A stretch of 64,000 nt of DNA, from assembly GCA_905221605.1 (NCBI GenBank), contig CAJNDS010002832.1, positions 116,001 through 180,000 on the forward strand, given 5' to 3'. The notes beneath the pieces were generated by a model, which was given only the letters and a program-made list of their open reading frames with translations, made no database searches and was not told the origin of the DNA. Made by a program: the position numbers and the translations under genes. The DNA comes from Symbiodinium natans. Lineage: Eukaryota; Sar; Dinophyceae; Suessiales; Symbiodiniaceae. This document shows positions 7,068 through 12,750 of the stretch, one piece after another; position 1 is the first letter of the stretch; each line of letters opens with the position of its first letter.

Positions 7068-10000
7068 ATGTACCTGGTGAAGGTGTCGGATTTGCTGCAG
7101 ATGAGCGGCAGACCCAGATCCCACGGCTTCCTGTTGCAGGAGAACCTCTTGCACGTGTGGGAGCCAGGCATGTCCGTGATCTTCATAACCCTAAACCCCA
7201 AAACCCTAAACCCTAAACCCTAAACCCTAAACCCTGATGTTCGTTTGAAAAAACAATATCTCGGAGGGCCTCTGGTGCATTTGTTATTTCCTGGGGGTGG
7301 GGAGGGGGGGTGGGGAGAAGGTAGTACTTGTGGGGTTTGCTTCTGCGCGCTGCTGCTTTAGAATTCCTGAGGCAGCACGAGCTCCAAAAGTCCAAGTCCA
7401 AATACATATATCGAACCCTAAACACCATGCCGAGCCGAAACCGTAAACCCGCACACAAACCCAATACCTCAACCTCCGACCAAGCCTAAGACCCTAAAAC
7501 GCTAAGTTCCAAACCCATAATCTCAATGCCTGAACCCTGACCCGCTAAAACCCCAAATGCAAACCTGTAGATCCTCCATCGAGCCTCCTCACACCTATAT
7601 GCGTGAATTGATGATGCTGTTAGCGGTCTTCGCGGTGTGGCCAGGAGACCCCAGCGCTAGTAGCAGGATGTAATTAGCGGGTCGGGCGCGAGTGGGGGTA
7701 GGGGTGGCATGTGGGCGGGGAGGGGGGGGGGGGGGTTGCGGCTAAGGGTGAAGGCTTAGAGCGAACTTGGTATACCAAAACATGTACTATTCTACGAGTA
7801 TACAAGAGTACACTTTTGCATGCCATACTATCTAATACTCTTGCGGAGTTTGTTATTGCTTCAAGCTTGAAGCAGGTTAAAGTTTCAGTATGTTTCCAGA
7901 CTTTGTGACTTTCCATGGCATCAAGGAAAATGCAAACAAGAGCTGCCGCAGGGGGAGCCTAGAAGGTAGGAGTTTCAGGGATAAGGTTTTGAGATTTCGG
8001 AGCTCGCAATGAGTTCACAAAGATTCTAGCCTGTTGGAAAGGCTTAATTTTAGGTCCAAGGTCCCGGGGGTCCAGGGTTTGCCAACAAGAATCTTTGGTT
8101 GGGGCTTTCGATGCTTTGGGTTGTTTAGGGAACAACCAACCCCAAAACATGCACAAGCTCGACGTCTAAAGCCGAAATCAGCCTTGGCCTCAAAGAAGCT
8201 TCAAAAAGTGTTTACCAATTCGTAGTCCCCTTCCCCCCCTCCCCCCCTTCCGGCCCCCTAAACCCCAATTCACTCTCTTCCCAGACAGCATCAAGAGTCA
8301 CGTCTGGGAAATGGGGGCCCGGCGTATGTCTTCAACACTCTCTGTCGAGATGAGTTAGGGTTTTTCAAGCCTTGGCAAGAGTGATTTCTGGGTTTAGGTT
8401 GATTTTTGAAGGAGTAGGGTTTGGTCAGTGGAACGAGGGCTTTGATTGGGGTGCGTCTTGGGTGCGTTTTGGAATTTCTTGGAGGATTTAGAGTTGTTGT
8501 TGCAATTTAACAGGCACTTCTTACTCGTGCGCCTCAGATCATAAGCGCCAAATCTTGAACGCCAAACCAGAAGAATTTCGGGGCTCACGTCCACCTTGGC
8601 CCTTAACTGGTAGAAGCCTATAAGGCGAAACTTCGCGGGCTAAATGACCACGCGAATTGTCACATGGACTGCGTTCCAATCTGAAGCGCTGAGCGCAACG
8701 TGGCAATGTGACTGCCATCCTACGAAGGGGTCTAAGCGGTCCCCAATGACATATGAAGTTGTTCAAGCTGAGCACTTCTGCTGCAGCCTATTCCACGAAA
8801 TCAAACCGAAGAGGACCAGGCATGAAGACATGAAAAGTGAAATCAACTGCTCTCGACAAGCATGAGAATCACCAAGAGTTATGCATAACTCTTGGTGAAA
8901 TGGTCACGGTTAGCTCCAAGAGTTTTCACTTGCTAACTGTAATCATATGGGAAGTGAAAACAAGATGTCAAAACAAACATTTCACCCAGAGTTATGCATA
9001 ACTCTTGGTGATTCTGCCTGTCTGTGTTTTTTCGGGGCGCCTCCCTACGGGAACGCAGCCCATCTAGACCCTTTGCAATCATGTCTGGGGATGGACATGT
9101 GACACTTCGCGCGGTCATTTAGCCTGCGAAGCTTCGCCTTATATACGCTTCTAACTACCAGTTAAGGGCCAAGGTGGACGTGACCCCCGAAATTCTCCTG
9201 GTTTGGCGTTCAAGATTGGGCGCTTATGATCTGAGGCGCGCGAGTAAGAAGTGCCTGTTAAATTAAATGCTCCAAGAAGTTCCAAAACGCACCCAAGACG
9301 CACCCCAATCAAAAACCTTGTTCCTCGGCCCAAACCCTTATTCCTTCAAGAATCAACCTAAACCCAGAAATCGCTCTTGCCAAGGGTTGAAAACTCTGAC
9401 TCATCTCGACGGAGAGTGTTGAAGACAAACGCCGGGCACCATTTTGCAGACGTGAGTCTTGGTACTGTCTGGGAAGAGTGAATTGGGGTTTAGGGCTGGG
9501 GGTGCGGAAGGGGGGAGGGGGGAGGGGACTACGAATTGGTAAACACTCTTTGAATCTTCTTTGAGGCTAAGGCTGATTTCGGTTTTAGACGTCGAACTTG
9601 TGGATGTTTTGAGGTTGGTTGTTCCCTAAACAACCCAAAGCATCGAAAGCCCCAACCAAAGATCCTTGTTGGCAAACCCTGGACCCCCGGGACCTTGGAC
9701 CTAAAATTAAGCCTTTCCAACAGGCTAGAATCTTTGTGAACTCATTGCGAGCCCCGAAATCTCAAAACCTTATCCCTGAAACTCCTACCTTCTAGGCTCC
9801 CCCTGCGGCAGCTCTTGCTTGCATTCTCCTTGATGCCATGGAAAGTCACAAAGTCTGGAAACATACTGAAACTTTAACCTGCTTCAAGCTTGAAGCAATA
9901 AGAAACTCCGCAAGAGTATTAGATAGTATGGCATGCAAACTTACTCTTGTATTCTCGTAGAATAGTATATGTTTTGGTATACTAAGTTCGCTCTAAGCCT

Positions 10001-12750: not shown

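Follow-up and report, generated by a model that had tools for sequence, protein, structure and literature searches.

An intron interrupted in one of two tandem gene copies

One of two tandemly duplicated gene copies in Symbiodinium natans carries, inside an intron, more than three kilobases of DNA that the other copy lacks, which raises the question of what this DNA is and whether it belongs to a wider family of mobile elements. The window analysed here is a 64,000-nucleotide stretch of contig CAJNDS010002832.1. A preliminary description of it had placed a fold-back element with flanking ATAT motifs between positions 7256 and 10646 of gene copy A, and its empty site in copy B. These outer coordinates are exact. 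The tandem duplication is real, with blocks of copies A and B aligning at 85–98% (93.5–98% beside the insertion site and 85–95% farther away). Both ATAT copies are present (7256–7259 on the left, matched by the empty site, and 10643–10646 on the right), as is the empty site in copy B (AACAATATAGAAGCC, forward strand, 17837–17851, with ATAT at 17841–17844), which is the sole match to this sequence in the window when up to two mismatches are allowed. The element between the two ATAT copies, referred to here as e1, spans 7260–10642. The 3,383 bases first reported as extra DNA are the length of e1 itself, whereas the filled site is longer than the empty one by 3,387 bp, e1 and one ATAT taken together. 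The 11-bp terminal inverted repeats, CTCGGAGGGCC (7260–7270, forward strand) and GGCCTTCCGAG (10632–10642, reverse strand), are present, but they are complementary at 10 of 11 positions rather than in full.

The sequence around e1 suggests a GC...AG host intron at 7168–10659 on the forward strand, whose exact borders are ambiguous because of a repeat of exon sequence. This direct repeat of 23–24 bp (CCAGGCATGTYCGT...) encloses a CCCTAAA tract and flanks the intron in both gene copies (7164–7186 and 10656–10678 in copy A; 17767–17790 and 17873–17895 in copy B), and the intron itself looks like one born by a small tandem duplication. e1 is evidently a passenger within an older intron, one common to copy B, and was either inserted in copy A after the gene duplication or lost cleanly from copy B.

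Two other differences between the copies lie close to e1. Directly right of the site, copy B has a surplus of 19 bp over copy A (17850–17874 versus 10652–10657), which lies between two runs of six C and probably reflects either a short loss from copy A or a gain in copy B. A long TTTAGGG array at 10769–10848 in copy A is missing from copy B near 17977. Telomere-like CCCTAAA/TTTAGGG tracts are dispersed in the window, at 1121–1266, 2874–2961, 7187–7235, 10769–10852, 46702–46765 and 53413–53522.

e1 and the one full relative found contain long internal palindromes

The interior of e1 is dominated by a large inverted repeat. A left outer single-copy region with partly degenerate CCCTAAA-like sequence (7294–7611, forward strand) is followed by the left arm (7612–8666, forward strand), a 429-bp loop (8667–9095), the right arm (9096–10230, reverse strand) and a right outer single-copy region with partly degenerate TTTAGGG-like sequence (10231–10605, forward strand); the outer borders of both arms are approximate. 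The arms, each about 1 kb, aligned in BLAST as inverted copies over 999 columns with 89.5% identity, far beyond chance, and MAFFT put their identity at 91.0% over 1,057 columns; a 430-nt block is 97% identical. The fold-back structure originally proposed is therefore upheld as far as long inverted arms are concerned, but the arms are internal and stop short of the element ends, beginning about 350–410 bp inside (single copy for about 352 and 412 bp). In the loop, two 30-bp palindromes, one perfect (8869–8898) and one with a single mismatch (8982–9011), make up a nested inverted repeat of 38 nt. Positions 8660–9100 folded far better as single-stranded DNA than 100 shuffled sequences (z −8.4), and an Rfam scan of 7100–10800 gave no match.

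A search of the host genome (759,417,921 bases in 2,543 contigs) with positions 7260–10645, which comprise e1 and three bases of the duplication, revealed one other full relative, e2. This list of relatives is a lower bound, since 40 of 357 candidates were scored. e2 is a 2,499-bp element on the minus strand of contig C1876, and it matches e1 at either end, in each arm and in the loop at 71–95% identity (73–88% for the longer pieces). Its target duplication, GAGC/GAAC, agrees at three of four positions and its terminal repeats at seven of 11. The arms of e2 start 371–448 bp inside the ends, are 739 bp long with one mismatch (99.87% identity) and enclose a loop of 202 bp. The whole-element search returned 71 match rows, and nearly all those outside e1 and e2 fell on the TTTAGGG-like stretch at about 3032–3258 of the element; these were dismissed as repeat matches.

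Searches with interior pieces recovered the same two elements only: e1 and e2 were the sole matches to a 399-bp piece of the e1 arm (4 of 4 candidates scored) and to a 210-bp piece of the e2 arm (3 of 3 scored). Likewise, the 30-bp palindrome, searched genome-wide with up to three mismatches, occurs twice in e1, once in e2 and nowhere else, with no match for the control. At the search sensitivity used, the giant form is present in two copies in the host genome. As the arms of these two copies have diverged by 24–26%, there has been no recent burst of the giant form. Two other loci, L117 (contig C1896) and L118 (contig C1929), carry a related left end and have about 90 bp in common from that end before they diverge. 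Their right ends were not found, and they have only short or 66–74% inverted matches in place of a long palindrome; they may represent additional long relatives that differ in their interior.

Long palindromes assemble badly, so e1 might be suspected of being an assembly artefact, or else a palindrome that arose by chance. We find this barely credible, as two unlinked loci carry related ends and each has its own 4-bp duplication. The arms of e1 are also just about 90% alike, and therefore do not represent a single arm that was read twice. In addition, the published assembly of S. natans CCMP2548 (761,619,964 bases in 2,855 scaffolds, the largest of 3.40 Mb) is described as a hybrid that combines short and long reads (PMC8045281).

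An abundant short family with ends like those of e1 and e2

A pattern built from the left ends of e1 and e2 matched the genome at 68 places with up to three mismatches, e1 and e2 included, compared with 12 for a reversed control. When the other 66 matches were inspected, half of them (33) had a right end with no more than two mismatches at a distance of 81–163 bp, and in 22 of these 33 the right end lay at 87–105 bp. The remaining 33, without a right end at this cut-off, include chance matches, truncated-looking copies and duplicates. Exact 4-bp duplications flank 10 of the 33 short copies, compared with a mean of 0.49 when the right flanks were re-dealt and with no more than one at each of seven control offsets. 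Two of these 10 (L112 and L113) have flanks in common and represent one insertion that was duplicated later, which makes 9 of 32 a fairer figure.

With 24 positions of the short family's own left end as the query and up to two mismatches allowed, the genome gave 1,987 matches and the control none. A second sample consisted of 20 of the first 23 exact left-end matches listed, a non-random choice. A right end was found in 16 of the 20, and in 15 with no more than two mismatches; among these 15, the 4-bp duplication was exact in 10 (0.96 when re-dealt) and agreed at three or four positions in 13. The right-end pattern of e1 and e2 matched exactly in these two elements only. With up to three mismatches it gave 17 matches against 22 in the control, so these looser matches are mostly noise.

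Against the consensus of the roughly 95-bp family, the left end of e1 (7260–7293, forward strand) agrees at 22 of 34 positions and the right end (10606–10642, forward strand) at 26 of 37, and the corresponding values for e2 are 24 of 34 and 26 of 37. The rest of the window, on both strands and with about 121,000 positions for each end, served as background; the best scores there were 21 for the left end (121,098 positions) and 24 for the right (121,086 positions). The margins for e1 are thus small (22 versus 21 and 26 versus 24), but chance is unlikely because both ends of both elements beat the background and their borders are fixed independently by the duplications. At both ends, e1 and e2 resemble this MITE family (ends CTMGGTAGGCC...) in a manner that suggests homology.

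These ends are accordingly not private to e1, as e2 and the short family have related ones. The proposal that e1 defines a new non-autonomous family holds for its being a non-autonomous mobile element, but not for its being a founder, given ends like those of a family with 1,987 left-end matches. The genome search that had been suggested for copies with the same ends did recover related ends with 4-bp duplications, but an autonomous partner with a transposase was not found among the relatives recovered by the element, arm and end searches. No copy of the short family was found in the window at up to three mismatches. In several short copies (L038, L039, L130, L139 and L140) a telomere-like tract lies mid-element. 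In L127 and L135 the middle is swapped for a different stretch that bears G runs; L135 keeps both ends, and the right end of L127 was not found.

Coding capacity and origin of the palindromic interior

The longest stop-to-stop frame lying wholly within e1 encodes 94 amino acids, and the longest within e2 encodes 126. Pfam analysis of five e1 frames (82–94 amino acids) gave no match. Five e2 frames (107–126 amino acids) gave one weak match (E 0.063; 13.2 bits versus a cut-off of 25), to a family whose function is unknown, and none of the ten frames therefore had a match at 0.01 or better, or one that reached the cut-off. A transposase gene is absent among the frames inside e1 (up to 94 amino acids) and e2 (up to 126 amino acids). 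The statement that e1 has no transposase-like frame is hence borne out by both frame lengths and Pfam.

These results bear on the possibility that e1 and e2 are the decayed autonomous parent of the family, whose coding DNA was lost and replaced by a palindrome. In length both greatly exceed the 95-bp copies, their ends are related, and they are as few as a rare parent would be. However, their inner frames are short, nine of the ten have no Pfam match and the tenth has only the match of unknown function below the cut-off, and the palindromic interior probably predates the split of e1 and e2, as it is present in both copies. We therefore consider descent from such a parent to be very improbable.

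The palindrome could instead be a separate fold-back element that was inserted in a member of the short family and then carried along. The single-copy outer parts, with arms that start about 350–410 bp inside, would fit such an origin, as would the replaceable middle of the short copies, exemplified by the telomere-like tracts of L038, L130 and L139. This origin nevertheless appears improbable, as neither the arm pieces used in the searches nor the 30-bp palindrome has an independent copy elsewhere in the genome, and the outer single-copy parts far exceed the whole length of the short family.

By eye, the palindrome begins at homologous places in e1 and e2, and it is therefore probably older than their split. 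The arms have a different pattern of relationship: in a four-way alignment with 626 gap-free columns, 123 sites group the arms by copy, one by arm and one crosswise. The asymmetric stretch of the e1 loop (element positions 1667–1773) matches e2 at 88% in inverse orientation, while the ends of the two elements have the same orientation. It appears that the arms have since been homogenised, or rebuilt, within each copy, and the comparison of these two copies points to arm–arm recombination or gene conversion behind both the likeness of the arms and the inversion of the loop.

e2 and single short copies as candidate introns

e2 lies between ...ATAACTCTCGC-GAGC and GAAC-TGGCCG, in a gene at 65.5–68.3 kb of contig C1876, and once e2 and one duplication are removed the frame is open through the junction. 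The joined peptide had 21 genomic matches, two of which are the halves at e2 itself. Of the 19 others, 16 start at least four residues ahead of the junction, and one of the 19 contains a stop. All three of the paralogues that were fetched from these 19 align to the joined peptide gap-free at the site, the longest of them being an ion channel (Ion_trans, PF00520, E 6.4e-24). Given this gap-free match to three paralogues, e2 is probably a 2.5-kb intron in an ion-channel exon. It appears to have been inserted into a coding exon, which GA...AG splicing would restore exactly. Pfam analysis of the joined pieces of the e1 host gene and of the short e2 host piece gave no match, and the sole PDB match to the e2 host piece was meaningless (E 0.43).

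Alternatively, e2 may be no intron at all, and the gene copy that it broke may now be dead. Such an outcome would be in keeping with a donor that is GA rather than GT and with the one changed base in the left duplication. We consider it unlikely, as the frame is open up to and past the site and gap-free against the three fetched paralogues, and as a review gives the share of GC or GA donors in Symbiodiniaceae as 25–74% (PMC11453091). The pipeline described for S. natans also accepts GA donors (PMC8045281). An intronic e2 thus remains the preferred reading.

A comparable case was found in the short family. The 134-bp copy L039, on contig C49, has the duplication GAGT/GAAT and interrupts a PARP-like exon. 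When L039 and one duplication are taken out, the resulting peptide has a PF00644 match that crosses the junction (E 6.3e-5; 23 bits, compared with a Pfam cut-off of 26.7). This joined peptide had 10 genomic matches, of which two are the halves at L039 and all eight others cross the junction in their match rows. The L039 intron would be GA...AG. Such single copies of the short family appear to act as introners, with their own 3′ AG and a 5′ splice site from the duplication, and the introner claim for the family is one of single cases. In a frame test of 38 right-ended short copies, 15, 12 and 13 had a frame that stayed open over 90 nt or more to each side, and precise joins were not separated from shifted ones. 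The short family seems to insert both within and outside coding DNA. Pfam analysis of the joined exon pieces of six further short copies (L036, L061, L111, L124, L135 and L138) gave no match, and no paralogue was found for L135. The duplication of e1, ATAT, provides no GT, GC or GA donor, so e1 itself is no introner of this kind.

A model for e1 and its family

These observations are best explained if e1 belongs to a high-copy MITE/introner family as one of its rare, giant fold-back members, a non-autonomous DNA transposon of the cut-and-paste type, and we consider this model very probable. A transposase encoded elsewhere would act in trans on the common ends (about 11–37 bp) and insert the element, generating the 4-bp duplication. 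Introner elements have been reported in 3–5% of genes in groups of Symbiodiniaceae, and transposase sequences in most of the genomes (PMC11114475), so a mobilising enzyme is plausible. e1 would have entered the intron of gene copy A following the tandem duplication, or have left copy B without trace. As the family ends are CT...AG, an insertion in coding DNA would bring its own 3′ splice site AG, and the 5′ splice site (GT, GC or GA) would be drawn from the duplication; e2 appears to have taken this route in the ion-channel exon and to have become a 2.5-kb intron. Within the palindrome, arm–arm recombination would keep the arms alike in each copy and flip the loop. The ends, duplications, empty sites, likeness of the ends, arm homogenisation and loop orientation in this model are read directly from the sequences; a transposase that acts in trans, the splicing and the way in which the arms recombine are inferred from them.

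A more far-reaching and decidedly tentative idea, which we think doubtful, is that palindromic giant introners exist as a class. These would be kilobase fold-back transposons that make introns, with arms renewed by recombination in each copy and with an RNA hairpin that joins the distant splice sites, so that long inserts splice as easily as those of 95 bp.

e1 and e2 bear on how introners originate and what mobilises them. Together they suggest that kilobases of other DNA can be carried between the ends of a family that makes introns, and they link intron-making transposons to a large hairpin-shaped form. The search for the missing transposase gains long query sequences from them, and their palindromes are two natural settings for tracking how arms become homogenised and loops inverted. 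e2 also poses a clear question, namely whether a 2.5-kb insert that bears a hairpin is spliced.

Comparison with known systems

MITEs, introners and fold-back elements are each already known, and no kilobase fold-back form with introner ends was found in the open-access literature searched, which is a weak negative. At 3,383 and 2,499 bp, e1 and e2 exceed the few hundred bp of a MITE. The closest parallel is provided by the introners of Symbiodinium microadriaticum, for which a 4-bp duplication, terminal inverted repeats, a 3′ splice site of their own and a 5′ site derived from the duplication have been described (Gozashti et al. 2022, PMC9860276). As described, family 1 of these introners has the same four features as the family reported here, and its example spans 86725–86839 of scaffold LSRX01000224.1, about 115 bp. 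A 4-bp duplication accompanies e1 (ATAT/ATAT), e2 (three of four positions) and the short copies (exact in 10 of 33 and in 10 of 15), and terminal inverted repeats are present in e1 (10 of 11) and, with just 7 of 11 positions, in e2. A terminal AG, a donor from the duplication and a removal that restores the frame are predicted by sequence for e2 and L039, but not for e1. The published introner families have median lengths of 30–654 nt (PMC9860276), in contrast to the 2,499 bp of e2 and 3,383 bp of e1 with their long fold-back arms.

Such arms recall the fold-back and long-TIR elements of the Galileo type (PMC3573991), which are alike in having long inverted arms, non-coding copies composed of arms and spacer, and signs of recombination that involves the arms. 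In e1 and e2, unlike Galileo, the arms are internal, so that the large inverted repeats do not reach the element ends in either copy, just 11 bp are inverted at the ends, and the target duplication is 4 bp. The introner elements of Amoebophrya (PMC7789003) are likewise introns of a dinoflagellate whose borders carry inverted repeats together with short direct repeats. As described there, their inverted repeats are 8–20 nt long and a family-specific repeat motif was not detected, whereas the elements reported here have family-specific sequence at both ends and arms of up to about 1 kb.
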